Below, one piece after another: positions 33,174 through 49,084 of a stretch of 64,000 nt of DNA. Source of the stretch: Flagellimonas marinaquae (GTDB lineage Bacteria > Bacteroidota > Bacteroidia > Flavobacteriales > Flavobacteriaceae); contig NZ_CP092415.1 in assembly GCF_023716465.1 (NCBI RefSeq), positions 2,643,501-2,707,500 on the forward strand. The letters are read 5' to 3'. Position 1 is the stretch's first letter; each line of letters opens with the position of its first letter. Position numbers and translations under genes: made by a program. The notes below the pieces were generated by a model. That model saw nothing but the letters and a program-made list of their open reading frames with translations. It was not told the DNA's origin and made no database searches.

Positions 33174-34388
33174 ATGCAAAAACAAAATCAAAAACCCAAT
33201 TTTGAGTTTGTGGCCATGATGGCTGCTTTAATGTCCATCGTGGCCTTGGCCATAGATGCCATTTTGCCTGCCATTTCCAATATCGGAGAAGCTATTAATA
33301 GTACCGACCCAACGGATAACCAGTTATTGGTCACCATGATTTTCTTGGGTCTTGGTCTGGGACAATTATTTTTTGGCCCCATATCCGATAGTTTTGGGAG
33401 AAAACCGGTGGTTTATGTCGGTTTCGTAATATTTTTAGTGGCAAGTATTATTTGTTTATATGCGCCCTCGTTGGAAATTATGGTGGTCGGAAGAATTTTA
33501 CAGGGTATTGGACTTTCCGCTCCAAGAACCATTTCCATCTCTATAATTCGGGATACCTACGAAGGAGACTACATGGCAAAAATTATGTCTTTTGTGGTTG
33601 CTTTCTTTATTCTGGTACCGGTCGTGGCTCCTGCCATTGGTAAGCTTATCTTGGATGCTGCCGGGTGGAAGGCCATCTTCTACGTTCAATTGGTATTTGT
33701 ACTTATTGTTGCTATTTGGTTTTGGAAACGTCAAAAGGAAACTTTACATCCACAATATAAAATACCGTTCACTAAGCATGTGTTTATCGATGGTGTTCGC
33801 GAATTTATCAAACATAGGGAAACGGTTGCCTTTACATTGACATCGGGACTGGTGACCGGAGCATTTTTGGTGTATTTAAGTTCTGCCCAGCATATTTTTG
33901 AAGATCAATACGCACTCAAGGAAATGTTTCCATACATTTTTGCAGGATTGGCCATTTCCATAGGTCTTTCAACTTTTTTAAACGGAACTCTGGTTATGCG
34001 TTTTGGAATGCGGAAACTTTCGCTTATGGCCACTATAGCCTTTTGTGTTATTGCCATTTTGTATTCCATTTTGTTTTTGAACTCACCAAATCCCAGCATT
34101 TATATTTTGGTAGGGTTTCTTTCCATCCAGTTTTTCTGTCTTGGGTTTATGTGGGGAAATTTCCGATCCATTGCCATGGAGCCTATCGGTCATATTGCTG
34201 GTATCGGTGCTGCTATTAACGGATTTGTATCCACTCTACTGTCCATACCTATAGCCACTTTTATCGGTGAATTCGTAAAAGACACGGTTTGGCCTTTATT
34301 TGCCGGTCTGGCCATTTGCGGATTGTGCGCATTGACCATTTTTCTTTGGGTGAACAAACCTAAAAGAAAAAGGGTAGCTACGACTTAA
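33174..34388 (+). CDS. Bcr/CflA-type multidrug efflux MFS transporter
   Basis: The 404-residue protein has 12 predicted transmembrane helices. It shows the DHA1 Bcr/CflA pattern: an early AIDAILPAI in helix 1, the helix 2-3 loop GQLFFGPISDSFGRKPVVYVG (motif A), and an R-x-L-Q-G-I-G motif (RILQGIGLSAPRTIS). It should be a proton-driven drug or metabolite exporter in the inner membrane. The 3' end overlaps the convergent anmK gene by 4 bases. It is not obviously linked to its neighbours. Confidence 0.87.
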   Translation: MQKQNQKPNFEFVAMMAALMSIVALAIDAILPAISNIGEAINSTDPTDNQLLVTMIFLGLGLGQLFFGPISDSFGRKPVVYVGFVIFLVASIICLYAPSLEIMVVGRILQGIGLSAPRTISISIIRDTYEGDYMAKIMSFVVAFFILVPVVAPAIGKLILDAAGWKAIFYVQLVFVLIVAIWFWKRQKETLHPQYKIPFTKHVFIDGVREFIKHRETVAFTLTSGLVTGAFLVYLSSAQHIFEDQYALKEMFPYIFAGLAISIGLSTFLNGTLVMRFGMRKLSLMATIAFCVIAILYSILFLNSPNPSIYILVGFLSIQFFCLGFMWGNFRSIAMEPIGHIAGIGAAINGFVSTLLSIPIATFIGEFVKDTVWPLFAGLAICGLCALTIFLWVNKPKRKRVATT

Positions 34389-35473
34389 ACCTTTGCGGGC
34401 ATGAATATTTCACCACTGCAAGAATCCTCCGTTGCACCGGTAACTGACTTTAACACGTTTGTTTTACCTTCTAGCCGTAAAACGCCCATTAAAGCAAAAA
34501 CCAAGGCTTCCTTATAAGCGATCAAAGTTTTGCTAGGTACAACAACTTGGATTTCCCTGCCCAACTTTTCTTGAAGCGTTTCGATAAAGAAAGAGTTAAG
34601 TGCACCCCCTCCCGTAGCAAATAATTTGGTGTCAGTTTCGCTACTGTTCTTGTGCAGATGTACTGCATTTGCGATTTGTTCGCAATTATGGTGGATAAAT
34701 GTGTGCAACAGGTCTTTATTGGAAGCTTTTGAGCTTTCTATTATTGGTAGAATCTCGGAGGAAAACCATTCAAAGCCCGTGGATTTGGGATTGGGCAGTT
34801 GGTAGTACTCCAAGTTGTTCAGTTTGTCCAGCATGGTCCGGTCCAGTTTTCCAGAACGTGCCAATTTTCCATCTTCGTCATAGGCCATACCCATTTTATG
34901 GGTAATAAAGTTCAAGGGCATATTGGCCAAACCAATATCATAGGCTATACGTTTACCGTCCTTTTTAAAAGAAATATTGCTGATGCCGCCCAAATTCAGA
35001 CAAAAGTCATACTCATGGAACAAAAGCTCATCACCAATGGGTACCAAGGGAGCTCCTTGTCCCTTTAGGGACACATCTTTAGTTCTAAAGTCGCACACTA
35101 CCTTTTTTCCGGAAGTGTTGGCCAATAGTTGACCATCGCCAAGTTGAAACGTAATCCCTTCTTCCGGTCTGTGATGGGAAGTATGTCCATGACTTGCAAT
35201 AAAATCCACATCTCCTTTCAAGTTTTCTATAAACTCCTTGGTCTTTTGCCCTAAAAAAATTCCATAATCTTTGTGCAATTGATCGTGGTCTTCTTCGGAA
35301 AGGTGGATGGCGTTTTTAAGATGTTCCCGCATTTTGTCGGAATAATCTATTTCTGCGGTTTCTTTAATGGAAAAATTCCATTTTCCGGCCTCTTCCCAAA
35401 TATGACAATAGGCAATATCGAGACCGTCCAAAGAAGTACCGGACATTAGTCCCAAGACTTTATACGTGTTCAT
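34385..35473 (-). CDS. anmK: Anhydro-N-acetylmuramic acid kinase
   Basis: The 362-residue protein starts LGLMSGTSLDGLDIAYC, the hallmark of AnmK, and has SHGHTSHHRPEEGITFQLG, NLGGISNISF and an ATGGGALN block of the ASKHA fold. AnmK opens the 1,6-anhydro bond of anhMurNAc and phosphorylates it to MurNAc-6-phosphate, the substrate of MurQ (encoded at 48269). It ends the peptidoglycan-salvage operon, overlapping the methyltransferase gene by 4 bases. AnmK and MurQ on opposite arms of the same locus strongly support a common pathway. Confidence 0.95.
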   Translation of the reverse strand: MNTYKVLGLMSGTSLDGLDIAYCHIWEEAGKWNFSIKETAEIDYSDKMREHLKNAIHLSEEDHDQLHKDYGIFLGQKTKEFIENLKGDVDFIASHGHTSHHRPEEGITFQLGDGQLLANTSGKKVVCDFRTKDVSLKGQGAPLVPIGDELLFHEYDFCLNLGGISNISFKKDGKRIAYDIGLANMPLNFITHKMGMAYDEDGKLARSGKLDRTMLDKLNNLEYYQLPNPKSTGFEWFSSEILPIIESSKASNKDLLHTFIHHNCEQIANAVHLHKNSSETDTKLFATGGGALNSFFIETLQEKLGREIQVVVPSKTLIAYKEALVFALMGVLRLEGKTNVLKSVTGATEDSCSGEIFMPAKV

Positions 35474-36135
35474 ATATTACTTATTTCTATGATTAAAGAA
35501 ATCGGCTTGTGTTCATTATTCAAGATTTCTTTAAAACTAAATTTACTCTGCTCAACCATATTTAATACCTCGATCCAATCTTCCATGGTCCGAGCATACC
35601 AAGAATGTCCGTCGGTAAAGTTGCCCGGCAGGCCTTTCCAAGAATCGGAGAGCCATTGACTTTGATAAGGTAGACCGTTTTCAATCAAAAAATAGGGGTG
35701 CAAAGTCTGAATCACAATGGCGCCGTTTGCTTTTAATTGCTTTAAAGTATTGGAAAACAACTCTTGTGTTCCATCTTTTAGATACAGGCAAAAATTGAAG
35801 ACTGCAACATCAAAAGGTGCATTTGGAATTGCTTTTCCGTCAATAATATCCTCAAAAGTGAACACTTCAAAAGAATGGTTACCTTGTTTTTTTGCTTGCT
35901 CGATTAAGCCTGGTATTGCATCTACTCCTGTAGTTTTCCAACCCAAGGTGTGCATTTCCCGCGATAACCAACCTTCTCCGCAGCCAATGTCCGCCAAGGA
36001 GTCACCATCCAAAGATTTTAGTGTGTCGAGAATGGCCGTATTCGTATATTTTCTTGATGGAATTGCGTTGTTTTGAATAATTTTCACCCATTCTTCGGCA
36101 TTTTTATGCCAAGATTTTTTGATTTCATCACTCAT
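35470..36135 (-). CDS. Class I SAM-dependent methyltransferase
   Basis: This 221-residue protein has the Rossmann-like methyltransferase core. Motif I is LADIGCGEGWLSREM (about residues 55-69), followed by GVDAIPGLIEQAKK with the acidic residue that contacts SAM, and FDVAVFNFCLYL further on. Its substrate is unknown. It overlaps both neighbours (anmK and nagZ) by 4 bases, so it belongs to the salvage operon transcriptionally, but I know of no methylation step in amino-sugar salvage. It may be an unrelated passenger or act on a modified cell-wall sugar. Confidence 0.85.
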   Translation of the reverse strand: MSDEIKKSWHKNAEEWVKIIQNNAIPSRKYTNTAILDTLKSLDGDSLADIGCGEGWLSREMHTLGWKTTGVDAIPGLIEQAKKQGNHSFEVFTFEDIIDGKAIPNAPFDVAVFNFCLYLKDGTQELFSNTLKQLKANGAIVIQTLHPYFLIENGLPYQSQWLSDSWKGLPGNFTDGHSWYARTMEDWIEVLNMVEQSKFSFKEILNNEHKPISLIIEISNI

Positions 36136-37715
36136 AGCTGGAATGTTTTCAGTTGAATGGGAAGTGTTCCTTTAGCTTCTATTTTTCCTAAAAAGTGTTC
36201 AACGGCAACTTCTTGGAATTCTGGAAAATCCTGATAGATCAATGCTACATTGGAATTCGCTGCCAATTGTAAAATATCGAGCACGTAAGGGTTGCCAAAA
36301 AGGTAGATCAAGATGTTTTTTTCTTGAATCAGTCTATGGATCAACGCCAATGTCTTCTTATCAAACCCAAAAAAATCTTTAGGTTTTACAGCGGGTGGAA
36401 ATATACTCAGCAAGGCATTTTTTTTATCCGATGCCAATGCAGTATCCAAATCTATGGCTTGTATTCCCGAATGTGCCGCTATTTGTTCCGAAAAGTGGTT
36501 CTTTTTTCCAGAACTTATAGAAACATTCAAGAAGTTGGAGGATTTGATTTCTTCTGCCAGGAGTGGATTGCCATAAAGCTCCGTAATGGTATTTTGGGCG
36601 ATTTCTTTGTTTAATTGGACAGTATCCCCATTTGAAGTTTGCACAGCGGTATTTGGGGCGAAAACTTTCTGTTTTAATGCCCAAACCCTTTCAAAGCTTT
36701 GTTCTATTTGTTTTTTAGTTGAATTATTTACGATTCTTGTAATGCCTTCCGCCACATTTTCGGTAAAGCATAGTACATCCATACCAGCAGAAAACGCAGC
36801 CGCTTCCAACGCCCCTTTTTCAGCGAACTTTTTGGATACGGCATGCATATTTAGTGCATCGGAAATTACTACGCCATTAAAACCCAACTCTTTTCGGAGT
36901 AGCTCGGAAATAATCTTTGATGATGTAGTGGATGGGTGATCGGGATCTATCTGTGGCAAGAGCAAATGCCCGACCATAACGGAGTCGACCCCTTTATCTA
37001 TCAGTTTTTTAAAAGGATATAGTTCATTCTTCAATAGATCATCCAAGGGTTTATCGATAACAGGCAGTCCCAAATGGGAGTCGGTGGCCGTATCGCCATG
37101 CCCGGGAAAGTGTTTAATGGAGTTAAGAGTCCCACTTTCCGACATTCCCTTTAGAAATGCTTCTGCCTTGGAGAGTACACTATCCCTATCGTCCCCAAAA
37201 GACCGATACCCAATAACAGGATTTTCCGGATTGTTGTTGATATCGACCACGGGGGCCAAATTCCATTGGATGCCTGCATGTTTACAATCTTTCCCGATGG
37301 CTTCTCCCACTTTATAAATAAGTTCGTTGTTATTGTTGAGGGCGCCCAATGTGATCGCATAAGGAAATTGTGGTGTGTTCTCGATGCGCATGGCAAGTCC
37401 CCATTCAGCATCGATGGCTATGATGAGCGGAATTTGAGCGGCTTTTTGGTATCGGTTTATAAGCTCCAATAGCCGATCATAGCTTTTTTCGTTGTGAACC
37501 ACTTTTTTCTTGCCTTCGAAGTTGGTTGCGGCACTGGCCCTGCTGTGGAAAAAACAAATGGATCCTACATGGTAATCCTTGATCAATTTTTCCATTTTTT
37601 GAACCTCTTCCTCGGTATCGTTGATGAATACGGCAGGCATAAATAATTGCCCTACCTTTTGTTGTAAAGAAAGTTGTTCAGAGGTAAGTGTGTATGTTCT
37701 ATGGGTATCAATCAT
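36132..37715 (-). CDS. nagZ: Glycoside hydrolase family 3, NagZ-like beta-N-acetylhexosaminidase
   Basis: The 527-residue protein has no signal peptide. It carries a GH3 barrel: QQKVGQLFMPA at the N-terminus, IAIDAEWGLAMR, NSIKHFPGHGDTATDSHLGL (the NagZ-specific KH(F/I)PGHGxxxxDSH loop with the catalytic His-Asp pair), and the nucleophile in VVISDALNMHA (Asp286). A C-terminal domain of about 180 residues follows, longer than in E. coli NagZ. NagZ removes GlcNAc from GlcNAc-anhMurNAc muropeptides in the cytosol, feeding AnmK. It overlaps the AmpG gene by 8 bases. Confidence 0.92.
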   Translation of the reverse strand: MIDTHRTYTLTSEQLSLQQKVGQLFMPAVFINDTEEEVQKMEKLIKDYHVGSICFFHSRASAATNFEGKKKVVHNEKSYDRLLELINRYQKAAQIPLIIAIDAEWGLAMRIENTPQFPYAITLGALNNNNELIYKVGEAIGKDCKHAGIQWNLAPVVDINNNPENPVIGYRSFGDDRDSVLSKAEAFLKGMSESGTLNSIKHFPGHGDTATDSHLGLPVIDKPLDDLLKNELYPFKKLIDKGVDSVMVGHLLLPQIDPDHPSTTSSKIISELLRKELGFNGVVISDALNMHAVSKKFAEKGALEAAAFSAGMDVLCFTENVAEGITRIVNNSTKKQIEQSFERVWALKQKVFAPNTAVQTSNGDTVQLNKEIAQNTITELYGNPLLAEEIKSSNFLNVSISSGKKNHFSEQIAAHSGIQAIDLDTALASDKKNALLSIFPPAVKPKDFFGFDKKTLALIHRLIQEKNILIYLFGNPYVLDILQLAANSNVALIYQDFPEFQEVAVEHFLGKIEAKGTLPIQLKTFQL

Positions 37716-38988
37716 TTGAATCGGTAGTTTTTTTGCCGTAATCGGCAGGGTATTTTAAATAACGAAGCACAATAAAAGCCGGCAAGGCGGCAATTACCAC
37801 CCATATAAAGAAGCCATCATAACCCAACCATTCTTGTATGTAGCCGCTTAGCATTCCGGGCAGCATCATTCCAAGAGCCATAAAACCGGTCGCTATGGCA
37901 TAGTGCGATGTTTTCGAAGCTCCTTCTGCCACATAGATGAGGTACATCATAAATGCTGCAAAACCGAAACCATAACCAAATTGTTCTATGATTACGGTGC
38001 CCACCACTGCGTAAATACTGGTCGTTTGTGTAACGGCCAACAATGCATACAGAGCGTTGGGCAAATTTAGTGCGAGCAGCATGGGAAGCATCCATTTTTT
38101 TAGGCCATCCCGAGATATTAAAATACCGCCCAAAATGCCGCCAAGTGATAGCATAATTACGCCTACGGTGCCATAAATGGTGCCCACGGCTTCGGTGGAA
38201 TAGGCCAATCCGCCCATTTCCAGTCCGTCCAGTAGGAAAGGGGAGGCCATCTTAACTAATTGGGATTCCCCCAAGCGATACGTTAGGATAAACAGCAATG
38301 CTACCCCGATTTGATGTTTTCTAAAAAAGGTGGCGAATACTTCGAAAAATCCAGCAGGTTTTTCATCCGATTGCGAGGCAGGCTCTTCAAATTTTGGTGC
38401 GGTAAAAAAGTTGGATATGGTCAAAGCGATCATTAAAACAGCAGCGCAGATCATTGTAATAGACCATGCTTTGGTATTGTCCCCGTATTTATTTTCCAGA
38501 AAACCGGCAAAGATTACCAAAAGTCCTTGTCCGGTAACCATGGCCAAACGGTAAAAAGTGCTGCGAAGTCCTATAAAAAACGACTGTTTTTTCTGTGTAA
38601 GGCCGATCATATAATACCCATCGGAGGCAATGTCGTTTGTGGCCGATGCAAAAGCAGCCATCCAGAAAAACGCTAAGGTGATAATAAAGAACGAGTTGGA
38701 CGGTAGAAAAAGTCCGATTCCCAAAAATGCCAACGAAATAATCAATTGCATGGCCAAGAACCACTTTCGTTTGGTACCGTTAATGTCCACCAAGGGGCTC
38801 CATAATGGTTTTATTACCCATGGCAGATATAACCAACTTGTGTACAGGCCGATTTCTGCATTTCCAATGCCCAATCGTTTGTACATAATTACTGAAACGG
38901 TTACCACTAGAATGTATGGGATTCCCTGAGTGAAATATAAAAAAGGAATCCACAACCAAGCGTTTTTATCTTTTGGAGCTACATTCAT
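37708..38988 (-). CDS. ampG: AmpG-family muropeptide MFS permease
   Basis: The 426-residue membrane protein has 12 predicted helices. It opens with WLWIPFLYFTQGIPYILV and has LYLPWVIKPLWSPLVDING, a typical AmpG/acetyl-CoA-transporter family signature, and later VGTVIIEQFGYGFGFAAFMMYL. AmpG brings GlcNAc-anhMurNAc and its peptides from periplasm to cytosol. Its place directly upstream of nagZ (8-base overlap) and close to anmK agrees with this role. The specificity is inferred from family and context. Confidence 0.9.
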   Translation of the reverse strand: MNVAPKDKNAWLWIPFLYFTQGIPYILVVTVSVIMYKRLGIGNAEIGLYTSWLYLPWVIKPLWSPLVDINGTKRKWFLAMQLIISLAFLGIGLFLPSNSFFIITLAFFWMAAFASATNDIASDGYYMIGLTQKKQSFFIGLRSTFYRLAMVTGQGLLVIFAGFLENKYGDNTKAWSITMICAAVLMIALTISNFFTAPKFEEPASQSDEKPAGFFEVFATFFRKHQIGVALLFILTYRLGESQLVKMASPFLLDGLEMGGLAYSTEAVGTIYGTVGVIMLSLGGILGGILISRDGLKKWMLPMLLALNLPNALYALLAVTQTTSIYAVVGTVIIEQFGYGFGFAAFMMYLIYVAEGASKTSHYAIATGFMALGMMLPGMLSGYIQEWLGYDGFFIWVVIAALPAFIVLRYLKYPADYGKKTTDSND

Positions 38989-39467
38989 TTAGGCTGTTTT
39001 AATAGATTTTGATAAATACTTTTTTCCGACTTTTCTATGATCTTGGCGCCTACGGCCTGTTCATAATAGCCAGCAGGGCCGACCCCTCCAATAATTGCAT
39101 AGGTGTATCCCATATTTTTGAGGGCCATAAGTGCCTTTATCAGTAATATTTTACCAATGCCTTTACCTCTTTGGTCGGTTAGGACACCGGTAGGGCCAAA
39201 AAAATTCTTGGCGGTACTTTCAAAACAAGCGAAACCTAAAATTTCCTGTCCACGCTGAGCAATAAAGCAGTTTACGGGCTTGGAGGCAAAGGCAACTTCT
39301 GTTTCGTCCGCCCAATTTTTGCTGAAATGCTTCTTTGTCCAATCCACAACAATACTTTTTTCCGGACTAATGGGTCTTTTAAATATTACACCGTGATTTT
39401 CGAAGAGGTTTTTTTCCGCCTCAGAAATGTCGGGAAGGTCCAAAAGTCGAACAAGCATATCGTGCAT
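38985..39467 (-). CDS. GNAT-family N-acetyltransferase
   Basis: This 160-residue protein has the GNAT fold: EILGFACFES (strand 4), then VLTDQRGKGIGKILLIKAL with the acetyl-CoA pyrophosphate loop RGKGIG, and the C-terminal YAIIGGVGPAGYYEQAVGAK. Its start overlap with ampG (4 bases) and 7-bp gap to the glycosidase lipoprotein put it in the salvage operon. An amino-sugar or peptide amine as acceptor would fit the context but is only a suggestion. Confidence 0.83.
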   Translation of the reverse strand: MHDMLVRLLDLPDISEAEKNLFENHGVIFKRPISPEKSIVVDWTKKHFSKNWADETEVAFASKPVNCFIAQRGQEILGFACFESTAKNFFGPTGVLTDQRGKGIGKILLIKALMALKNMGYTYAIIGGVGPAGYYEQAVGAKIIEKSEKSIYQNLLKQPK

Positions 39468-39474
39468 GAGTGGT

Positions 39475-40959
39475 CTATTTTAAATTTAGTGGCTGCACAG
39501 CGCTTTCGTTGCCGTATGCATCACTTATGTTGATTACTAAATCTTTTCGTAGATGTTTTTTTGTAATATTGAATTGATAACACCCTTCTACTTCACTTTC
39601 GGAAAGGTATTCTTTTCCAATGAGTTCTGTTTTGCCTTGTTTTACAACGTAAAGGTTTATAAAACGAGGAACATTATCCGTATGGGAAACACATAGATCG
39701 ATGATTGTATTGCTGACTTCGACTGATTTGATAGCGGGAAGTAGAACTACACGCACTACACGATTTAATGGCCCTGGATTTTTTGCGGGCAGATTGTAAA
39801 ATTTCTTTTGGAGTTTTTTGTTGACCTTTTCATGCTGACCGATCAAGGATTTTGCGCTGAAAAAGATATTACCGTCAATGTTATCCAAATCCCGGGCAAA
39901 ATGCAACTGCTTGGGAATTTCATTGTTTTTCTTCCAAGCCTTGTCCGCATTATTTTTGATTTTGTACGTGCCATTGCCCACGTATAGATTGGTGTTGGGT
40001 GTGTTTTTGGCCCACCAAGATGTGATAATCTTATGTGATGCCACGGGGTAATCCATGCTCCAATACACTTGGGGCGCTAAATAATCCAGCCAACCTTCTT
40101 GGACCCAAAGTACGGGGTCGGCATATAGGTCTTCATAGGTGGTTTGTCCGGCTTTGGTATCGGAGCCCAAAGGGTCGGTACTTTTGTTTTTCCAAACGCC
40201 AAATGGACTAATGCCGAACTGTACCCAAGGTTTATGTTTTTTGATGGTTTTGTGCACATCCTTCACCAAGGAATCCACATTGCTTCTTCTCCAATCTTCC
40301 AAAGACTGACCCGGCAATCCATATTTTTTATAGCTTTCGGTATCATCAAAAGTTTCCCCTTCAACTTTGTAGGGGTAGAAATAATCATCAAAATGAATGG
40401 CATCTATTTCATAATTGGTGACCAGTTCTTCAATGATTTTATTGAATTTTTCCCGTACCGCTGGCAGTCCGGGGTTGTAGTAATATTTTTTTCCGTATTT
40501 GATGATCCAATCGGGATGTTGGAAAAAGTCGTGCTTTTGTGAGAGCTGGGTGGTGTCCAAGCTAACTGTAGCTCTGTACGGATTGAGCCAAGCATGAAAT
40601 TCCATACCTCGTTTGTGTGTTTCTTCGATCATCCATTTTAGAGGTCCATCGAACTTTTTTGGTGCCTCACCTTCCTTACCGGTCAGATACCTGGACCACG
40701 GTGCTAAATCAGTAGGGTAGAGGGCATCTCCTGCGGTCCTAACTTGAACAATGGACGCGTTGAAGTTCATTTTTTGGTAGAAGTCCAAGATTTGGATGTA
40801 ATCCTTTTTTTTCTTGATTACTTCGTCATTGGGATTTTTGGGCCAATCGATATTGGCCACAGTGGCAACCCAAACACCTCTAAATTCTTCTTTTGGGGCT
40901 TTGGTGGTAGCACAGGAAAGAAAAATAAAAACTGGGATTATGTATAGAATTCGAAACAT
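39475..40959 (-). CDS. DigH/YddW-like glycosyl hydrolase lipoprotein (GHL10 family)
   Basis: The 494-residue lipoprotein (lipobox FLSC, Cys16) begins with the family mark FRGVWVATVANIDWPKNP, followed by a TIM barrel. AIHFDDYFYPY at about residues 186-196 has catalytic-type acidic residues, and VQFGISPFGVWKNK and YLAPQVYWSMDYPV follow. A C-terminal Ig/FN3-like domain ends the protein. In E. coli the homologue DigH (formerly YddW) is an outer-membrane lipoprotein that cleaves denuded peptidoglycan glycan strands. Here it lies between susD and the AmpG-NagZ-AnmK genes, a fitting place for a hydrolase that releases importable cell-wall saccharides. A hairpin terminator lies just before its ATG. 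Confidence 0.88.
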   Translation of the reverse strand: MFRILYIIPVFIFLSCATTKAPKEEFRGVWVATVANIDWPKNPNDEVIKKKKDYIQILDFYQKMNFNASIVQVRTAGDALYPTDLAPWSRYLTGKEGEAPKKFDGPLKWMIEETHKRGMEFHAWLNPYRATVSLDTTQLSQKHDFFQHPDWIIKYGKKYYYNPGLPAVREKFNKIIEELVTNYEIDAIHFDDYFYPYKVEGETFDDTESYKKYGLPGQSLEDWRRSNVDSLVKDVHKTIKKHKPWVQFGISPFGVWKNKSTDPLGSDTKAGQTTYEDLYADPVLWVQEGWLDYLAPQVYWSMDYPVASHKIITSWWAKNTPNTNLYVGNGTYKIKNNADKAWKKNNEIPKQLHFARDLDNIDGNIFFSAKSLIGQHEKVNKKLQKKFYNLPAKNPGPLNRVVRVVLLPAIKSVEVSNTIIDLCVSHTDNVPRFINLYVVKQGKTELIGKEYLSESEVEGCYQFNITKKHLRKDLVINISDAYGNESAVQPLNLK

Positions 40960-40966
40960 ATAAGCG

Positions 40967-41006
40967 AAAAAAAAGGCCTACGTATGCACTAAATGTAGGC
41001 CTTTTT
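40967..41006 (-). terminator. Intrinsic-terminator-like hairpin between susD and the glycosidase gene
   Basis: GGCCTAC and GTAGGCC arms (40975-40981 and 40995-41001) extend into A/T pairs around a 13-base loop and end in a run of eight Ts on the minus strand. The T-run stops only 7 bases before the glycosidase ATG, so it could dampen transcription from susCD into the downstream genes. Confidence 0.7.
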
Positions 41007-41049: not shown

Positions 41050-42384
41050 TCAGATGGCTGGGTCATCTGGTGTATTGGTGTTATTATCTCTTTCCGTGTT
41101 AGGGTAAGGATAAAAGTTTCTATTACGTTCTTCGTCAAAATTCTGAACTGTAGGGGTCGGGTCGGGTCTTCCAAATCGTCGGCTATCTTCCAAACTCATT
41201 CCTGTTAAGAACAGTTCTGCTCTTCTGTTTTTGTATACCTCGTCCAACAATACGGCAACCGAAGTATCCCCATCATAAGCAGAAACGTTGGCATTTACCC
41301 CAAAAACATCATCGGTATCGGTTAGCACTAAATTTAAAGCGGTAACAGCGGCACCGGTATCGGGGGATGATTTTCTTAGATTGGCCTCGGCAATAATCAG
41401 GTTCATCTCGTCCGGTAGATAAATTGGAATAGATCCTGTGTCGGCATTAAAGAAACCTGCTAAATCTTCGATCGGGAATTGGTTTTGGTTCAATTCATCC
41501 AAAGGAACCATGTAAAAGTCAAATCTACCGTCACCGTCTTCGAATACAAAACTAGCTGGCAAGCCAAAATTGTCCTGTGGTTTAAAGTTCGGAGCGCTGT
41601 TCTGGAAAACCCTGCTCCAAATTGGATTTAGGTTTTGAGTATCGTAGGTAAAAACGGAACTAGAGGTTTGGTCCACTTCGGATGCTGCAGCGATGGCCGC
41701 ATCGTAGTTGCCCGCAAACAGATTAAATCTGGCCAACATGGCATTTATGGTGTTCTCCAAATCAATATCCCCTCTTAAAACCTCTGCTTCGAACTCTGCA
41801 GAAATCGGATTTGCAGCGATGGCACTCTTGGCTTCGTTCAACAAGGCGATTGCGGTGTTGTACCCTTCAATTCTTGATATGAAAGGAGGGTTGTCCTCGG
41901 AAGTCGCCACAATTACTTGCTCATAGTTCTGAGCCATGGCTCCAATGCTCATGGCGTGAAATAGTTTCGCATTGGCGATCAAACCACTTTTGGTCCCTGC
42001 ATCGATATCGAGTTCGGCAGCATTTGCTGCAATGTCCTCGGCAATTCCCACTACTCTTAGCATTGTTGTCCACAATCCCACTACATTGGAATTGGTATTA
42101 GGGATGTCCCCACCGTCTTCCAAATCGATCATGTTTTGGAAAGTAGTGGTTATTCCTCCTTCTCTTGTAGTAATTGCAGGGGTTTCGATAATATATCGCA
42201 TACCGGTAGTGGAATACAGTTCCTGCATTCCAATTGTAGTGGCCAAAATCCCTTCCCTGGAAGTGAAAACTTGATCACTTGCAGCGGCATTTGGATTGTC
42301 AAAGTCTGTTTCGCACGATGTGATTGCCAATACGGTGGTTAGCAGGAACATCAGCTTATATGTAGAATATCTATAAAATTTCAT
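41050..42384 (-). CDS. SusD/RagB-family outer-membrane lipoprotein
   Basis: The ATG at 42384 (a TTG lies two codons earlier) gives a 444-residue lipoprotein with lipobox AITSC. It is a SusD-like helical TPR protein: many alanine-rich helices, DEMNLIIAEANLRKS in the conserved C-terminal helix, and the family ending RRAELFLTGMSLEDSRRFGRPD before FYPYPNTE. SusD proteins bind ligand at the cell surface as a lid on SusC. At this size it is smaller than polysaccharide SusD proteins (often over 500 residues), in line with a small ligand. It is 17 bp downstream of susC. Confidence 0.93.
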   Translation of the reverse strand: MKFYRYSTYKLMFLLTTVLAITSCETDFDNPNAAASDQVFTSREGILATTIGMQELYSTTGMRYIIETPAITTREGGITTTFQNMIDLEDGGDIPNTNSNVVGLWTTMLRVVGIAEDIAANAAELDIDAGTKSGLIANAKLFHAMSIGAMAQNYEQVIVATSEDNPPFISRIEGYNTAIALLNEAKSAIAANPISAEFEAEVLRGDIDLENTINAMLARFNLFAGNYDAAIAAASEVDQTSSSVFTYDTQNLNPIWSRVFQNSAPNFKPQDNFGLPASFVFEDGDGRFDFYMVPLDELNQNQFPIEDLAGFFNADTGSIPIYLPDEMNLIIAEANLRKSSPDTGAAVTALNLVLTDTDDVFGVNANVSAYDGDTSVAVLLDEVYKNRRAELFLTGMSLEDSRRFGRPDPTPTVQNFDEERNRNFYPYPNTERDNNTNTPDDPAI

Positions 42385-42401
42385 TGTCAATTTTTTTAAG
42401 A

Positions 42402-45374
42402 TTAGAAGCTTACGTTTACACCTAACTGGTAGGTTCTCGGTATTGGCACCGTAGCAAAATCAAATCCTCTTACACCGTTGCTTTGTCCGGCAGCACTTAC
42501 TTCTGGGTCCCATCCGGAATAGTCGTCCCAAGAGATCAGGTTACGTCCTACCAGGCTGAACTTCACATTGTCTATATAATCCCATTTTGGTTTAAGGGTG
42601 TAGCTCAAAGCAACCTCTCTAAGTTTTACAAAAGAACCATCTTCAACGAACTCTTCGAAGATGTTAGCTTGTGCACTACCATATCCTTTGGGAAGCTCAC
42701 CTAACAATTCTGCACCAACTTGTGCACCTCCACCAAAGATTACGTTATCCATCAATCTTCTGTTCCAATTGAAAACATCGTAGCCTTGGATGGCGTCGAA
42801 TTGAACTCTAAGACCGAAATCTTTATAGGAGAATTCGTTGATTATAGAACCAAACCAATCTGGATTTGGATCACCGATTACCTTGGATGCTTCACCATCT
42901 TCGGTTGTACCTCTGTATGGGTATCCATTTTCATCCAAAGCAATGGAACCGTCTTCGTTTCTTGCGTAGAACTGACGATAGAATACACCCAATGGCTCAC
43001 CTTCGATTACGTAGTTGGTAGAGAAACTTCCTCCAAGCGCAATTCTTCCACCTCCGGCAACATTGGTAACCTCGTTTTTGTTTTTGGAGAAAGTAGCGGT
43101 CACATCCCAGTTAAAATCTTGGGACTTGATCGGGGTTCCTCTCAATAGTATTTCAACACCGGTATTTTCCAAGTTACCAACGTTTTCAAAACGAGAACCA
43201 AACCCACTCGATGGGCCAAGTACCCTTTGCAGTAGCAAATCGGTTACTTTTTGTTTGTAATAAGTAAACTCGATACCTAAGCGGTTGTTCATAAAGCCTG
43301 AATCGAAACCTAATTCGAACTCATCTTGTCTTTCGGGTTTTAGATCGGCATTACCAAGTAGTGTGCTTGGAGTAAGACTAACTGCTCCGGTCAATGCTGA
43401 TGGATTGTAATTCGTAAATCTTGAATAGGCGCCAAGTGCGGTAAGGTTACCTGCCTGACCCCAAGATGCCCTAACTTTAAAGATGTTGAAAGCGTCACCA
43501 AAGGTGTTTTTCCAAAACTCTTCGTCCGACATTACGTAAGAACCACTGGCTTTAAAATACAATTGGTTACGTTCGTCTTCTCCAAAAGAAGAAGCTCCGT
43601 CCATACGCACGGCACCATTGATGTAAATTTTGTCCTTGTACGAGAATGATTGCTGATAGAAGGCACCCCAATAAGAGATCTGTGAACGGCTTTCGCCTTG
43701 CTCTAAAATACTTCCACCTGTTGCCGTTTGAACCAATGGAGGAAGCCCTGTTGCGTTAATGCCAACGCTCTCGCGTTCCTCATACTGCCAAGATCCGCCA
43801 ATGGTAGAGGTTGACCTAATATCATCAGTAAGCTCGGTTCTATACGTTACGTTAAGGTCAGAGTTGTACTGAAAGTTGTTCAAATCAGCTCTTCTTGCAT
43901 ATCCATCGGCATTTGGAGATGTATTGTTAATTGGAATGTATGCCGTTGCCGATTGGTTATAGTAATCCATACCAAAAGTGTATTTGGCACTTAAGTTATC
44001 GTTGAACTTTGCATCCAAAGCAAGGCTGGTGATAAAACGATTGGTTTTCTGACCGAAATCGAAACGAGCCACTGCTTCTGCAGGATTGGTTCTTGGAACC
44101 AATGGAGAGGTTACAGGGTATACCCCGGATTCGTCCGGTGACGGGTCTATTGAGTTGTCACTGAACACATAACCAGTTATTGCACCGTATGGGTTGTTGA
44201 TACCACCATTGGGTACATCCTTGCTTACACTGCGAACGTAGTTGAACCCACCGGTAATGTCCAGCCAATCCGAAGCCTTTTGGGTAATGTTCGCTTTAAA
44301 ACCGTACCTTTTAAAATCGGTGTTTTTAATGATTCCTTCGTTGTCCAGGTGTGAAGCTGATAGGAAGTATGATGTTTTTTCTGTACCTCCTGTCATGGAT
44401 AGGTAATTTTCTATACCAAAACCAGTATCGAACAACTCATCTTGCAGGTTGTAACGGTCCACTTCGTAAGTTGCCAGGTTAGATCGGTCCGTAGGAACTT
44501 CCCAGGCCAATGGTACTGTATTGTAATCAATTTCTTTTCTTAGTTCATTGATACGGGCATTGGTCATAAAAGTAAACTTGGGTTCACCGCTCCTACCTTG
44601 TTTGGTAAAGATCTGTACAACTCCGTTACTTGCTCGAGAACCATAAATAGCTGCCGCAGCAGCTCCTTTGATTACCTCGATTTTTTCAATGTCGTTAGGG
44701 TTAATGTCGGCTAACCTGTTCTGGGCATTTCCCCCTAAGTCCACCAACTCGTTACTTGAGTTGCTAATGATGATTCCATCAATAATATACAACGGATCGG
44801 AACTACCGGCGATGGTACTTGGTCCCCTTAAACGGATACTGATACCTCCGGCAGGATCTCCAGAATTTTGTTGTACCAATGCGCCGGTGATCTTACCCGA
44901 AATGGCCTGATCGATCTGTGTAGCACCATTTTCTACCAATTGTTCGGCTTTAACAGAAGAAATGGCGTTCCCTAAAGTCCTTTTGTTTACACCGGCGCCA
45001 CTACCAGTAACAACTACCTCGTCCAAGCTCAAAAGGTCTTCGGCCAAGGCCATGTCGTTGGTAATAGTGGTTGACCCACCGGCATCAATGGATATTCGTT
45101 GTGATGTAAATCCTAGTGAACTGAACACTAGTGTGTAAGAACCCGAGTCAAGAGTTGCAGTAAACGTGTAGTTTCCATCAAAATCGGTAACAGTGCCGAA
45201 TGATGAGTTTTCAATAAAAACCGATGCACCTGCCAAGGGAAGGTTGGTTCCGGTTTCTGTAACGGTTCCAGAAAAAGTGTACTGGCTCTGGCCAAACGCG
45301 GAAAGCGTTGATACCAAGAGTGCAAATAGCACCAATCGGAACCTCAATCCTAAATAGTCATGAAGTTTTCGCAT
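42402..45374 (-). CDS. SusC/RagA-family TonB-dependent transporter
   Basis: The 990-residue outer-membrane protein has a signal peptide (cleavage near FG-QSQ, residue 29), a carboxypeptidase-regulatory-like domain (about 31-112), a TonB-box-like DEVVVTG (118-124), and a plug with the SusC hallmark SDPLYIIDGIII. A 22-strand beta-barrel follows. It imports a ligand captured by SusD using TonB energy. It starts 53 bp after nagB on the same strand, with no promoter of consensus type between them, so it probably shares the nagB promoter. Its neighbours point to peptidoglycan-derived saccharides. Confidence 0.94.
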   Translation of the reverse strand: MRKLHDYLGLRFRLVLFALLVSTLSAFGQSQYTFSGTVTETGTNLPLAGASVFIENSSFGTVTDFDGNYTFTATLDSGSYTLVFSSLGFTSQRISIDAGGSTTITNDMALAEDLLSLDEVVVTGSGAGVNKRTLGNAISSVKAEQLVENGATQIDQAISGKITGALVQQNSGDPAGGISIRLRGPSTIAGSSDPLYIIDGIIISNSSNELVDLGGNAQNRLADINPNDIEKIEVIKGAAAAAIYGSRASNGVVQIFTKQGRSGEPKFTFMTNARINELRKEIDYNTVPLAWEVPTDRSNLATYEVDRYNLQDELFDTGFGIENYLSMTGGTEKTSYFLSASHLDNEGIIKNTDFKRYGFKANITQKASDWLDITGGFNYVRSVSKDVPNGGINNPYGAITGYVFSDNSIDPSPDESGVYPVTSPLVPRTNPAEAVARFDFGQKTNRFITSLALDAKFNDNLSAKYTFGMDYYNQSATAYIPINNTSPNADGYARRADLNNFQYNSDLNVTYRTELTDDIRSTSTIGGSWQYEERESVGINATGLPPLVQTATGGSILEQGESRSQISYWGAFYQQSFSYKDKIYINGAVRMDGASSFGEDERNQLYFKASGSYVMSDEEFWKNTFGDAFNIFKVRASWGQAGNLTALGAYSRFTNYNPSALTGAVSLTPSTLLGNADLKPERQDEFELGFDSGFMNNRLGIEFTYYKQKVTDLLLQRVLGPSSGFGSRFENVGNLENTGVEILLRGTPIKSQDFNWDVTATFSKNKNEVTNVAGGGRIALGGSFSTNYVIEGEPLGVFYRQFYARNEDGSIALDENGYPYRGTTEDGEASKVIGDPNPDWFGSIINEFSYKDFGLRVQFDAIQGYDVFNWNRRLMDNVIFGGGAQVGAELLGELPKGYGSAQANIFEEFVEDGSFVKLREVALSYTLKPKWDYIDNVKFSLVGRNLISWDDYSGWDPEVSAAGQSNGVRGFDFATVPIPRTYQLGVNVSF

Positions 45375-45427
45375 AAAATTGAGTAGTTTAATTGAATTTA
45401 GTTTATCGAGTTGTTAGTGTTCATTCT

Positions 45428-47335
45428 TTAAAAATGATAGCGTACAAATCCCTCCATGGCTTCATATTCTGCCATTCCAAGCTCGTTGTATCTGTTCGCC
45501 GTGTCCTTGTTTCTTTGTTCGGCGCGTTGCCAAAACTCACGATCGTCGTTGCCCGGGAACATAGCGCTGTCCTTTTGGGATTGATGTTTAAAGATGGCAG
45601 TGATCTTACGGGCCATATCCTTGGGGCCGATCGGTACTGCCATTTCCATATCGGCAATGTCCCATTCTTGCCATGCTCCACGGTACAGCCATACGTAACA
45701 GTTCCGTATCCAATCTACCCTGTCCTCTTTTAGTTTTTCCAGTGCCTTAAAAATAATCTGAAGACATACTCTATGTGTTCCGTGTGGGTCCGACAGATCT
45801 CCGGCGGCGAAAATCTGGTGCGGCTTCAATTTGTTGAGCAAGTCGTACGTTAACTGTACATCCTCATCGGAAAGTGGTTTTTTGCGAACTGCCCCTGTTT
45901 CGTAGAACGGAAGGTTCTGGAAATGGGCGTTCTCTTCCGGTACGCCACAATATCTACAAGCGGCCAAAGCCTCTCCTTTTCTGATCAGGCCTTTGAACTC
46001 TTGTACTTCGGGGCTATCCAATTCACCAGGCTTTTTATTGGCCAAGAATTCTCTAACTTTCTTTATCTTTTGTTTAAGCTCTTTGTTGTCTTTTTGTACA
46101 TCTATGGCAAAATCCAAGAAGCGGATTACTTCATCATCAAAAACAGCAATGTTCCCTGAGGTTTGATATGCCACATGTACATTGTGACCCTGATCTACCA
46201 GGCGCAATAAGGTGCCTCCCATCGAAATCACATCATCATCTGGATGCGGACTAAAGATCAAGGAAGTTTTTGGGTGCGGTTGTGCTCTTTCAGGACGTTG
46301 GCTATCGTCTGCATTCGGTTTTCCTCCTGGCCAGCCCGTAATGGTGTGCTGTAACTGGTTAAAAACCTTTAGGTTTATTTGTTCTGCGGAACCGATCTCT
46401 GCGATCAGATTGCCCATTCCGTATTCGTTGTAGTCCTCGTTGGTCAATTTTAGAATGGCTTTTCCAAGCTTTTCTGATAGCCAGATGGTGGCGGTTTTGA
46501 TCAATTTATCGTCCCAGTCACACTCTGTGGCCAACCAAGGGGTCTTTTTTCTGGTTAGGGATGATGCAGCCGCTTCGTCCAAAACAAAATCACAATTGTC
46601 GTGATGCTGAAGGAAGGTTGCCGGAACCGATTCTTTTATTTTTCCCTCTACGGCTTGTTGTACAATGCTGGACTTTCCTTCGCCCCAAGCCATAAGAATT
46701 ATTTTACGGGCACTCATAATAGTACCGACTCCCATGGTAATGGCTCGTTTGGGAACATTTTCCTCGCCAAAGAAGTCGCTTGCGGCATCGAGTCTCGTCA
46801 TTCTGTCCAAACGGATCAGACGGGTTTTACTGTTCAATGTGGATCCCGGTTCGTTAAAACCAATGTGACCCGTTCGTCCAATACCCAATATTTGGATGTC
46901 TATTCCGCCTACATTTTTAATTTTCTCCTCATAATCCTCACAGTACTTTCTTATTTCGTCCATGGAAATATTACCATCTGGGATATGGATATTGTGTGGT
47001 TCAATATCAATATGATCGAACAGGTGCTCGTTCATAAATCTCACATAGCTATGGATGGAATCCGGTTTCATTGGGAAGTACTCATCCAAGTTAAAGGTGA
47101 TGACATTTTTAAAGCTCAACCGTCCTTCTTTATGAAATTGAACTAGGTAATCGTAAACTTTTACAGGGGTTGAGCCCGTAGCCAAGCCCAAAACGGCTTT
47201 TTTTCCTTCTTCCTGTTTTTGGTTGATCAAACTGGCAATTTCGTTGGCAACGGATAACGAAGCTACATCAGAATTTCCATGAATAATGGTGTGGATTTTC
47301 TCAAATCTTAATTCTTCTTGATAAGGCTGGTACAT
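45428..47335 (-). CDS. nagB: Glucosamine-6-phosphate deaminase fused to a PIG-L/LmbE-like deacetylase domain
   Basis: The 635-residue protein has two parts. Residues 1-290 form NagB: LATGSTPVKVY, NLDEYF with a catalytic Asp (about 83-87), and GIGRTGHIGFNEPG (151-164). After a linker, residues 355-600 form a LmbE/PIG-L domain with SPHPDDDVISMGG (zinc-binding HPDDD near 364-368), LSDPHGTHR as the distal His motif, and an ACRYCGVPEEN insert. NagB turns GlcN-6-P into Fru-6-P and ammonia. PIG-L enzymes remove N-acetyl groups from GlcNAc compounds, so the fused domain could supply the deacetylation step; this is inference. It is first in the minus-strand operon. Confidence 0.93.
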   Translation of the reverse strand: MYQPYQEELRFEKIHTIIHGNSDVASLSVANEIASLINQKQEEGKKAVLGLATGSTPVKVYDYLVQFHKEGRLSFKNVITFNLDEYFPMKPDSIHSYVRFMNEHLFDHIDIEPHNIHIPDGNISMDEIRKYCEDYEEKIKNVGGIDIQILGIGRTGHIGFNEPGSTLNSKTRLIRLDRMTRLDAASDFFGEENVPKRAITMGVGTIMSARKIILMAWGEGKSSIVQQAVEGKIKESVPATFLQHHDNCDFVLDEAAASSLTRKKTPWLATECDWDDKLIKTATIWLSEKLGKAILKLTNEDYNEYGMGNLIAEIGSAEQINLKVFNQLQHTITGWPGGKPNADDSQRPERAQPHPKTSLIFSPHPDDDVISMGGTLLRLVDQGHNVHVAYQTSGNIAVFDDEVIRFLDFAIDVQKDNKELKQKIKKVREFLANKKPGELDSPEVQEFKGLIRKGEALAACRYCGVPEENAHFQNLPFYETGAVRKKPLSDEDVQLTYDLLNKLKPHQIFAAGDLSDPHGTHRVCLQIIFKALEKLKEDRVDWIRNCYVWLYRGAWQEWDIADMEMAVPIGPKDMARKITAIFKHQSQKDSAMFPGNDDREFWQRAEQRNKDTANRYNELGMAEYEAMEGFVRYHF

Positions 47336-47379
47336 AACAAAATGTATAAGGTTCTAGCAAAATGCTGAAAAGTTAATTC

Positions 47380-47411
47380 CAAATGTATGCAAAAAACTGC
47401 ATTAAATGCAA
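47380..47411 (-). promoter_or_regulatory. Promoter of the nagB-susCD operon
   Basis: On the minus strand TTG (47409-47411), a 21-base spacer and TACATTTG (47380-47387) match the Bacteroidota consensus. The -33 falls within one TGCA-N6-TGCA palindrome and the -7 touches another. The ATG follows 44 bases downstream of the -7 box. Confidence 0.65.
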
Positions 47412-47462
47412 TAAAATGCAAATAATATACAATTACACTTGAAAACTGCATTTATTTGCAGT
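47387..47462. promoter_or_regulatory. Three TGCA-N6-TGCA palindromic operators
   Basis: Site 1 (47387-47402) is ATGCA-N6-TGCAT, site 2 (47406-47421) is ATGCA-N6-TGCAA, and site 3 (47445-47462) is ACTGCA-N6-TGCAGT. Half-sites recur at 9-10 bp steps, one helical turn. Sites 1 and 2 cover the nagB promoter; site 3 fills the spacer of the deoR promoter. The adjacent DeoR-family regulator is the obvious candidate to bind them. Confidence 0.7.
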
Positions 47463-47468
47463 ATTTTG
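47439..47468 (+). promoter_or_regulatory. Probable promoter of deoR-murQ
   Basis: TTG (47439-47441), a 20-base spacer and TATTTTG (47462-47468), one base short of the full TAnnTTTG, form a likely promoter. Operator site 3 lies inside its spacer. The regulator ATG is 46 bases further on. Confidence 0.45.
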
Positions 47469-47514
47469 CGGTTATTAGTTCCGTTTTTGGGATTTATTTA
47501 ACTTTATCCCACGT

Positions 47515-48264
47515 ATGTTAAAAGAAGAAAGACACCAGTTTATATTGAATGAAGTGGGAATCCACAACAGAATATTGCTGACGGATATCGCCGATCGGTT
47601 AAATGTTTCGGTGGATACCATTCGACGGGATATTAAGGAGTTACATAGTTCCAAGCAATTAAAAAAAGTGCATGGCGGAGCTGTTTCTCTTGGGTTTAAT
47701 AATTATAATCCTACAGGAAAAAAAATTTATTCCTTAGAAAAAAAATCGCAAATTGCGGAAAAAGCACTTGGACTCATTAAGGATGGACAGGTAATTTTAC
47801 TGAGTGGAGGGACAACCAATCTGGAACTGGCCAGAAAACTCCCCCCGAAAATAAAACTCACATGTTTTACCCCGAGCCTTCCCATTGCAGTTCAACTTTT
47901 GAGCAAGGACAATATTGAAGTGATCTTTATTGGGGGCCGATTGTCCAAAGACTCACAAATTACCATTGGCGGCAGCGCTATCAACATGCTGTCGGAAATA
48001 AAAGTGGATATCTGCTTTTTGGGAACCAACTCGATTCATCCCATGGAGGGGTTAACGGAATTTGATTGGGAGATAGTCCAAATGAAAAAGGCTATGATAC
48101 ATAGTTCAAGAAAAGTAGTGTCGCCTTGCATATCAGAAAAAATCGGGTCGACCCAACGTTATAAAATATGCGGGGTAGAAGAAGTTGATGTAATGATAAC
48201 AGAATTGGAACCTTGGGACATGAAACTGGACGCATTTAAAAATCTGAACATACAAATATTATAA
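47515..48264 (+). CDS. DeoR-family transcriptional regulator
   Basis: The 249-residue protein opens with the DeoR winged helix-turn-helix: KEERHQFILNEVGIHNRILL, then DIADRLNVSVDTIRRDIKEL with the recognition helix, and KKVHGGAVS. Residues of about 75-235 form the DeoR C-terminal sugar-phosphate sensor (ISL2-like fold) with ILLSGGTTNLELARKL and IGGRLSKDSQITIGGSA. Such repressors are released by phosphorylated sugars; GlcNAc-6-P, GlcN-6-P or MurNAc-6-P are good candidates here. It is divergent from nagB and 4 bp upstream of murQ. Confidence 0.92.
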   Translation: MLKEERHQFILNEVGIHNRILLTDIADRLNVSVDTIRRDIKELHSSKQLKKVHGGAVSLGFNNYNPTGKKIYSLEKKSQIAEKALGLIKDGQVILLSGGTTNLELARKLPPKIKLTCFTPSLPIAVQLLSKDNIEVIFIGGRLSKDSQITIGGSAINMLSEIKVDICFLGTNSIHPMEGLTEFDWEIVQMKKAMIHSSRKVVSPCISEKIGSTQRYKICGVEEVDVMITELEPWDMKLDAFKNLNIQIL

Positions 48265-48268
48265 TATA

Positions 48269-49084
48269 GTGATAGAAAAGCACATTAAGATTACGGAGGA
48301 GCCATCCAATTACGACGGATTGGACCAAATGGATACCTTGGAAATAGTTGCCAACATCAACAACGAAGATAAAAAGATTGCAGATGCAGTGGAGTCGGTG
48401 CTGCCGCAAGTAGCCCAAATAGTGGATGAGACTGCCAAACGTTTTGAAAAAGGGGGCAGGCTTTTCTATATTGGTGCAGGTACCAGTGGGAGATTAGGTA
48501 TTTTAGACGCTTCCGAAATACCACCTACGTTCGGGATGCCCTACGATAAGGTGATCGGACTCATTGCCGGTGGTGATCAAGCTATTAGAAAAGCAGTGGA
48601 GTTTGCCGAGGATGATACCGAACAGGCTTGGAAAGACCTCATGGAATACGATATTAATGAAAATGATGTTCTTGTGGGTATAGCGGCCTCGGGTACAACA
48701 CCATACGTTTTGGGTGGAATTGCCGATGCCAAGGCCCATGGTATTCTTACGGGTGGAATTACAAACAATCCAGGTTCGCCTTTGGCCACATCCGTTGATA
48801 TTCCCATTGAGGTAAATGTTGGACCAGAGTTTTTAACAGGAAGTACCCGAATGAAGAGCGGAACAAGTCAAAAACTGGTATTGAACATGATTTCTACGGC
48901 CCTAATGATTCGCATCGGCAGGGTAAAAGGAAATAAAATGGTGAACATGCAGTTGAGCAATACCAAGCTGGTGGACAGGGGCACGCGCTACATAATGGAA
49001 GAGCTTGGTCTTAGTTACGATGAAGCTGAAAAAGTACTCAAAAAATACGGTTCTGTTAAGCTGGCCATCGATGCATTAAAGTAG
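48269..49084 (+). CDS. murQ: N-acetylmuramic acid 6-phosphate etherase
   Basis: The 271-residue protein, from a GTG start 4 bases after the regulator stop, is MurQ. It has ITEEPSNYDGLDQM, the SIS-domain block YIGAGTSGRLGILDASEIPPTFG with the catalytic Glu, IAASGTTPYVLGGI, and TGSTRMKSGTSQKLVLNMIST. It removes D-lactate from MurNAc-6-P to give GlcNAc-6-P. It links AnmK (34385) to NagB (45428) within one locus. The C-terminal three-helix part is slightly shorter than in E. coli MurQ. Confidence 0.95.
   Translation: MIEKHIKITEEPSNYDGLDQMDTLEIVANINNEDKKIADAVESVLPQVAQIVDETAKRFEKGGRLFYIGAGTSGRLGILDASEIPPTFGMPYDKVIGLIAGGDQAIRKAVEFAEDDTEQAWKDLMEYDINENDVLVGIAASGTTPYVLGGIADAKAHGILTGGITNNPGSPLATSVDIPIEVNVGPEFLTGSTRMKSGTSQKLVLNMISTALMIRIGRVKGNKMVNMQLSNTKLVDRGTRYIMEELGLSYDEAEKVLKKYGSVKLAIDALK

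Follow-up and report, generated by a model that had tools for sequence, protein, structure and literature searches.

A locus that probably serves the scavenging of murein saccharides lies in a 64,000-nucleotide stretch of the Flagellimonas marinaquae genome (G000; contig NZ_CP092415.1, positions 2,643,501 to 2,707,500; the whole stretch is termed the window here). In it, a cytoplasmic recycling core (AmpG, NagZ, AnmK, MurQ, NagB and a DeoR-family regulator) is combined with an added outer-membrane SusC/SusD pair (Table 1). The observations that underlie this reading are gene content, linkage, membership of a SusC/SusD clade, operator-like repeats and the lack of a nagA gene above cut-off. Every component named in the initial annotation is present at 34385-49084, namely SusC and SusD, a GHL10 lipoprotein, AmpG-like and NagZ-like proteins, AnmK, MurQ, NagB and DeoR; a methyltransferase gene, a GNAT gene and a PIG-L domain fused to NagB had been left out there. 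Curated cut-offs are exceeded by AnmK, MurQ and NagB (NCBIfam) and by the DeoR and GHL10 domains (Pfam). AnmK and MurQ thus score as true family members, as expected of a catabolic pathway for N-acetylmuramic acid (MurNAc) and its 1,6-anhydro form (anhMurNAc).

In the proposed mechanism, SusD and SusC would bind and import cell-wall glycan fragments that come from dead or growing neighbours or that the cell itself sheds. The GHL10 lipoprotein would cleave strands in the manner of Cwp19 to give disaccharides of the N-acetylglucosamine (GlcNAc)-anhMurNAc type, which AmpG would carry into the cytoplasm and from which NagZ would remove GlcNAc. AnmK would then produce MurNAc-6-phosphate and MurQ GlcNAc-6-phosphate, which the PIG-L domain would deacetylate before the NagB domain forms fructose-6-phosphate. 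All transport and catalytic steps in this organism, as well as the SusCD ligand and the DeoR effector, are predictions from sequence. The cytoplasmic reaction order matches that of murein recycling in Escherichia coli (AmpG, NagZ, AnmK, MurQ, NagA, NagB); E. coli differs in that its recycling genes are scattered, no outer-membrane TonB importer is known to be involved and a separate NagA stands in place of the PIG-L fusion.

The enzyme families agree with the earlier proposal that each product is the substrate of the next enzyme, but the passage from GlcNAc-6-phosphate to fructose-6-phosphate also needs a deacetylation, and no nagA gene above cut-off was found in the genome (TIGR00221, best match 26 bits against a cut-off of 225.65). 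In a control search the same model gave matches in 14 of 14 genomes, above cut-off in seven. Because nagA is lacking at this threshold, the PIG-L domain, which has a PHPDD motif at residue 363 of the fusion, is a candidate deacetylase that probably acts on GlcNAc-6-phosphate and substitutes for NagA. The NagB-PIG-L fusion is found near SusCD in only 10 of the 26 close relatives described below. It is also the sole gene of the locus families near SusCD of the same clade in six further loci (L149, L153, L154, L159, L242 and L244).

Linkage of these genes is strongly conserved among close relatives. The window SusD was used to retrieve loci from named species genomes, and in 24 of the 26 relatives so obtained, mostly Flagellimonas/Allomuricauda and Arenibacter, AmpG, NagZ, AnmK, GHL10 and MurQ are kept with SusCD; the methyltransferase gene is present in 25 and the GNAT gene in 11. 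The exceptions are Arenibacter amylolyticus (L023), with AnmK, GH3, a GHL10 relative and a symporter, and a Bacteroidetes metagenome-assembled genome (MAG; L026), where SusCD is accompanied by a symporter, MurQ, DeoR and a distant AnmK.

A second SusCD locus (L001, at 2709515-2717504 of the same contig) begins 2 kb past the right end of the window, about 21 kb from the first SusCD pair. Its SusC and SusD are 40% and 37% identical to the window pair, and it also holds an SSF symporter, a second MurQ (59%), a DeoR paralogue (56%) and NamZ, with both Pfam NamZ domains. Pfam names NamZ an exo-beta-N-acetylmuramidase, and we take its family to be that called glycoside hydrolase (GH) family 171. The two full MurQ matches in the genome both adjoin SusCD pairs; a third, weak match sits in glmS. 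NamZ accompanies SusCD copies of the clade in eight genomes (G000, G810, G079, G087, G138, G605, G755 and G892).

In a tree of 81 SusC proteins, made by a quick method that gave long-branch warnings, the two copies from this genome fall into one 54-member clade (SH-aLRT 99) that excludes 19 other SusCs sampled from among the genome's SusC-like genes. None of these 19 controls has AnmK, NagZ, AmpG, GHL10, the NagB fusion, MurQ, NamZ, the symporter or a window-type DeoR within about 20 kb. A chance neighbourhood was ruled out by this result together with the conserved linkage in relatives.

The corresponding SusD clade was present in nine of 246 genomes sampled from the order Flavobacteriales, and nine of its 10 copies there lie with murein or amino-sugar genes. 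Among 397 Flavobacteriaceae genomes the clade occurs in 34, with 35 copies, 25 of which have at least one enzyme or transporter of the locus nearby (counts for G807, G794, G778, G943, G814, G847 and G646 are from coordinates alone). A murQ gene lies within 10 kb of 15 of the 35 copies, against about 0.2 expected by chance by our own arithmetic (some 1.1 murQ genes per 3.5 Mb genome). Across the phylum the clade was found in 30 of 395 genomes, and outside the order 12 of 21 clade loci have genes of the locus, six with AnmK and two with DeoR only. These searches scored at most 4-6 SusD candidates per genome, and copy numbers may be low. The association of SusCD with murein genes is therefore strong among close relatives and weakens in more distant ones. 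The conserved linkage of susCD with ampG, nagZ, anmK and murQ predicted for flavobacteria by the initial annotation is borne out by the 24 relatives and the 25 family copies; the opposite pattern, susCD pairs usually without these genes, is mostly not seen in the order and family, but linkage is weaker beyond the order.

Several observations weigh against a role in murein scavenging. One further SusC of the genome (L163) sits immediately outside the clade at the end of a very long branch, which leaves its exclusion unsure. One of the 10 order-sample copies (L072) has no locus genes nearby, and 10 of the 35 family copies lack enzymes and transporters, three having DeoR and the methyltransferase only and seven nothing (two of these at contig ends). 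Outside the order, nine of the 21 loci have no locus genes, and some have NagB or DeoR only, a content compatible with GlcNAc or chitin as well; two clade copies there (L140 and L160) lie beside GH18 genes. At the locus itself, NagZ and AmpG score under the curated NCBIfam cut-offs (Table 1) and are therefore named NagZ-like and AmpG-like, though clearly related, and Pfam and NCBIfam scans revealed no amidase, peptidase or GlcNAc kinase family in the operon. The assignment of murein saccharides as the SusCD ligand is one that we infer.

Some of these observations would suit a SusCD pair that imports GlcNAc-containing glycans generally, such as chitin or host or algal GlcNAc oligomers, and that shares an operon with the recycling genes as the products meet at GlcNAc-6-phosphate and NagB. 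Indeed, 12 of the 21 clade members outside the Flavobacteriales lie near NagB, AnmK or DeoR without murQ or NamZ, and the GH18 neighbours point the same way. Against this, AmpG, AnmK and MurQ, whose substrates as far as is known are murein sugars, stay together with SusCD in 24 of the 26 relatives, NamZ, of an exo-muramidase family, adjoins clade copies in eight genomes, and a Pfam scan of 10 window proteins gave no match to a chitinase family. General GlcNAc import is thus considered unlikely. That the pair is instead an unrelated transporter, for another glycan, a peptide or a cofactor, which landed in the operon by happenstance, would be in keeping with the clade copies that lack all locus genes (nine of 21 outside the order, seven of 35 in the family), but the two paralogues of this genome, both accompanied by a murQ, the 19 negative controls and the 15 copies within 10 kb of murQ make it highly improbable.

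The recycling core also exists on its own. Four genomes of the order sample (L077-L080) have the core without SusCD, with AnmK missing from the stretch viewed in L078 and GHL10 missing from L079. In G958, a congeneric species, genes for AnmK, NagZ, AmpG and NagB are followed by divergent DeoR and MurQ genes at the equivalent place (L252), with flanking genes that match by eye, and SusCD, GHL10, GNAT and the methyltransferase are absent. Since the core cluster also exists without it, the SusCD pair looks like an add-on to a conserved recycling core. The same loci could be read as a sign that SusCD brings back turnover fragments lost by the cell itself and merely tightens ordinary recycling, the bulk of the locus being a core that also occurs without the pair. 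However, classical recycling draws its fragments from the periplasm, G958 retains the core without any SusCD, and the NamZ and symporter of the second locus bring additional catabolic capacity; self-recapture is accordingly rated as improbable, and scavenging of murein saccharides remains the favoured reading.

Different SusCD lineages appear beside murQ. G791 (L253), from a genus other than that of the window genome, has the window arrangement minus NagB, whereas G947 (L254), of the same genus as G791, has beside deoR-murQ a different SusC (293 bits to the clade), a 571-residue SusD_RagB protein, a GHL10 relative and a symporter; AmpG, NagZ and AnmK are absent from its 16-kb stretch. In G944 (L243) a more distant clade member occupies the window position. 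Twelve genomes of the order sample have two murQ copies, and in all 11 that were examined (all but G213) one copy lies in a SusCD locus. Four of these have the window clade (L001, L073, L074 and L075), and seven have SusDs of two other Pfam types (L070, L084, L085, L086, L224, L225 and L226); the SusCs of L070 and L084-L086 fall outside the clade in the tree, and those of L224-L226 score just 248-252 bits. Because the two-murQ genomes pair one murQ with SusCDs of differing types, SusCD lineages seem to have been swapped or recruited beside murQ. Linkage of SusCD and murQ as a general flavobacterial state was ruled out, as a SusCD pair turned up just once (L204) in 40 further MurQ neighbourhoods, and another of them is a murein cluster in which no SusCD is clear (L199). 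A weakly matching protein of 791-798 residues near murQ in L188, L190, L191 and L194 was not counted; that of L188, the sole one scanned, is a TonB receptor by Pfam. Likewise, of 76 MurQ matches of at least 380 bits, hand-counted and core-like by our own reading, only six have a SusD-clade match within 10 kb.

At the level of individual proteins, the GH3 enzyme has a KHFPGHG-x4-DSH motif at residue 201, which we take to be the signature loop of NagZ (KH-F-PG-x-G-x4-D-S-H). Its best match in the PDB is a GH3 N-acetylglucosaminidase, and no signal peptide is evident by eye. For comparison with the low AmpG score, Tannerella forsythia AmpG is only 27% identical to that of E. coli (PMC7670621). 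The GHL10 protein covers positions 1-310 of the 311 in PF02638, and so has a full-length catalytic domain, and its residues 23-388 align with the solved catalytic part of Cwp19. The initial annotation had called it a DigH-like glycosidase. DigH is itself a GHL10 protein; a DigH hydrolase as the sole reading was given up when the Cwp19 match over the catalytic domain widened the assignment to the Cwp19/DigH type. E. coli DigH is described as acting on denuded glycans (PMC12288456), and Cwp19 as a lytic transglycosylase whose products end in 1,6-anhydroMurNAc, with reducing ends where the terminal MurNAc is peptide-free (PMC6016235). The GHL10 protein may act like Cwp19, and the anhydro ends so formed would best suit AmpG, NagZ and AnmK. 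Because its lipobox reads C-ATTKA, the lipoprotein may face the periplasm.

The window SusD, which is listed with a TTG start codon (an alternative ATG start gives 444 residues), matches no Pfam model by itself. Most of its aligned relatives do (Table 1), and its profile retrieves 25 PDB sequences (E 8e-14 to 5e-3), the majority of which carry the name SusD or SusD-like. The ETDFD that follows its lipobox resembles the SDDFE consensus of Flavobacterium johnsoniae SusD proteins, which is reported to have directed a lipoprotein to the surface (PMC5080379), and a surface location is suggested by this likeness.

The minus-strand genes from anmK to nagB are likely to form one transcript, because four neighbouring pairs overlap by 4-8 bp and no gap exceeds 90 bp (intergenic distances -8 to +90 bp over 34385-47335). 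The deoR and murQ genes are transcribed divergently from this run, and the region between nagB and deoR has TTGC-N6-TTGC direct repeats. In 41 such deoR-divergent regions 86 repeats were counted against 1.9 expected from Markov shuffles, although these regions are kin, many of them close orthologues, and do not amount to 41 independent tests. The repeat is present in 32 of the 41 regions (1.8 expected); seven (L069, L074, L076, L084-L086 and L151) have none even at N5-7, and the second locus of this genome has one only at N7 spacing. The window has three occurrences, two in the divergent promoter region and one inside the methyltransferase gene. A stricter motif, TTGCNRTNTTTTGC, occurs five times in the genome, once in the same promoter region and four times inside open reading frames (one in a gene adjoining glmS), and the idea of a genome-wide DeoR regulon was set aside in view of the position of these four. 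Amid the repeats and oriented towards nagB lies a TTG-N19-TAnnTTTG site, presumably the Bacteroidota promoter form, which would fit the placement that repression needs. Acting at the TTGC repeats, DeoR probably keeps both divergent transcripts repressed and is released by a sugar phosphate.

Table 1. Features of the locus at 34385-49084 of the window.
Feature	Position	Strand	Evidence
AnmK	34385..35473	-	PF03702 223 bits; NF007144 508.8 bits (cut-off 436)
Class I S-adenosylmethionine-dependent methyltransferase	35470..36135	-	Pfam Methyltransf_23
GH3 NagZ-like beta-N-acetylglucosaminidase	36132..37715	-	PF00933 270 bits; PRK05337 172 bits (cut-off 207)
AmpG-like inner-membrane permease, major facilitator superfamily	37708..38988	-	TIGR00901 187 bits (cut-off 350), E 3e-55
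GNAT acetyltransferase	38985..39467	-	PF00583
GHL10 lipoprotein, predicted to cleave murein glycan, Cwp19/DigH type	39475..40959	-	PF02638 245 bits; Cwp19 structure 5oq2, E 4.9e-102
SusD-like predicted surface lipoprotein	41050..42390	-	PF07980 (SusD_RagB) in 36/45 aligned relatives; PDB SusD matches via profile; lipobox TSC-ETDFD
SusC-like TonB-dependent transporter	42402..45374	-	CarbopepD_reg_2 and Plug domains; relatives named SusC/RagA
NagB glucosamine-6-phosphate deaminase with fused PIG-L de-N-acetylase	45428..47335	-	PRK02122 1064 bits; TIGR00502 266.6 bits (cut-off 236.9); PF02585
Divergent promoter region	47336..47514	.	TTGC-N6-TTGC direct repeats at 47408 and 47456; TTG-N19-TAnnTTTG site towards nagB
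DeoR-family regulator	47515..48264	+	PF00455, PF08220
MurQ, MurNAc-6-phosphate etherase	48269..49084	+	TIGR00274 315 bits (cut-off 302); GAGTSGRLG motif

The susC and susD genes are adjacent (41050-45374, 11 bp apart), as in a polysaccharide utilization locus (PUL). A published rule also requires at least three genes for carbohydrate-active enzymes (CAZymes) beside the pair (PMC11573768), and only one GH3 and one GHL10 gene are found here; the locus is PUL-like in layout and not a PUL by that rule.

The methyltransferase gene, which occupies the anmK-nagZ interval, is also present in L076, L232, L234, L235 and L253, directly after susD in L232, L234 and L235. Neither the five core loci without SusCD (L077-L080 and L252) nor L243 have it, and it seems to travel with the SusCD subclade of the window. 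Three clade loci of another class (L140, L141 and L160) all have PF00144 beta-lactamase-family genes; GH18 genes were confirmed by scan in L140 and L160, and AnmK and a symporter are present in L141 and L160. A gene for a membrane acetyltransferase-like protein of the DUF5009/HGSNAT type, which could act on amino sugars, recurs in L151 (1457-2599), L158 (17114-18256) and L084 (3097-4368), all three scanned, and similar starts were seen by eye in L085, L086, L233 and L234. Next to the locus, a gene for a pyrroloquinoline quinone (PQQ)-type sugar dehydrogenase (49093-50211) adjoins murQ, as it does in 24 of the 26 relatives, and is followed by a giant gene (50366-58675, 2769 residues), with giant genes likewise after the locus in L076-L080. 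The locus is also present, with a 95% identical SusD, in a contig titled Algicola sp. MAG (L002), a label that is probably wrong or old, the host being a flavobacterium.

A similar cluster of 27 kb has been drawn in a Urechidicola symbiont of Idas mussels, where most genes were assigned to murein metabolism and the substrate was left open (PMC10199937). Like the window locus it has susCD (two pairs there), deoR, murQ, nagB, ampG, GH3 and 'GH10', to which a sodium co-transporter and GH171 can be added as likenesses; it additionally has ampD, dacA, an epimerase and GH18. It belongs to one metagenome-derived symbiont genome and is mentioned in passing, and the available text of that report offers neither a test across the family nor a clade, an operator or a comparison with loci that lack SusCD. 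The suggestion of a distinct type of utilization locus, made in the initial annotation, is softened by this precedent. In T. forsythia, also of the Bacteroidota, external murein sugars are taken up through AmpG and MurQ (ampG-murTKQ), but the operon as listed in the available texts has no SusCD pair, AnmK or NagZ, and relies on the MurNAc kinase MurK, the transporter MurT and the regulator GppX instead of DeoR, in a MurNAc auxotroph (PMC7670621, PMC5388701, PMC5790795). Caulobacter GlcNAc clusters likewise combine a TonB-dependent receptor with NagA/NagB in an amino-sugar cluster; they have GlcNAc and phosphotransferase system permeases, and SusD, AnmK and MurQ are not named in the accessible part of the report, unlike in the window (PMC13046382). 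A Maribacter GH3 gene that adjoins an AnmK gene and 'GH10' was described in a laminarin context (PMC11345257) and is perhaps the same core. In the literature covered, which was partial and left most subscription papers outside, no definition of the SusCD clade of the window was found, nor any paper that links SusD, AnmK and peptidoglycan recycling or describes a peptidoglycan PUL with SusD-like proteins and MurNAc.

The bacterial cell wall is a large pool of carbon and nitrogen, whereas the glycans for which SusCD systems are chiefly known come from plants, algae and animals. On a wider view, which we hold to be evenly balanced between right and wrong, the Bacteroidota would have widespread and repeatedly assembled loci for the utilization of murein saccharides, in which SusCD lineages are swapped beside a deoR-murQ core, turning self-recycling into feeding on the walls of other bacteria, and the clade of the window would consist of importers of anhMurNAc glycans. 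The NagB-deacetylase fusion is a candidate NagA replacement. The effect of the importer could be followed in natural species pairs, G000 and G958 (with and without SusCD) and G791 and G947 (with different SusCDs). If true, a murein-linked SusCD clade would provide a gene marker for murein feeding and would explain SusCD pairs that lack the usual set of CAZymes.

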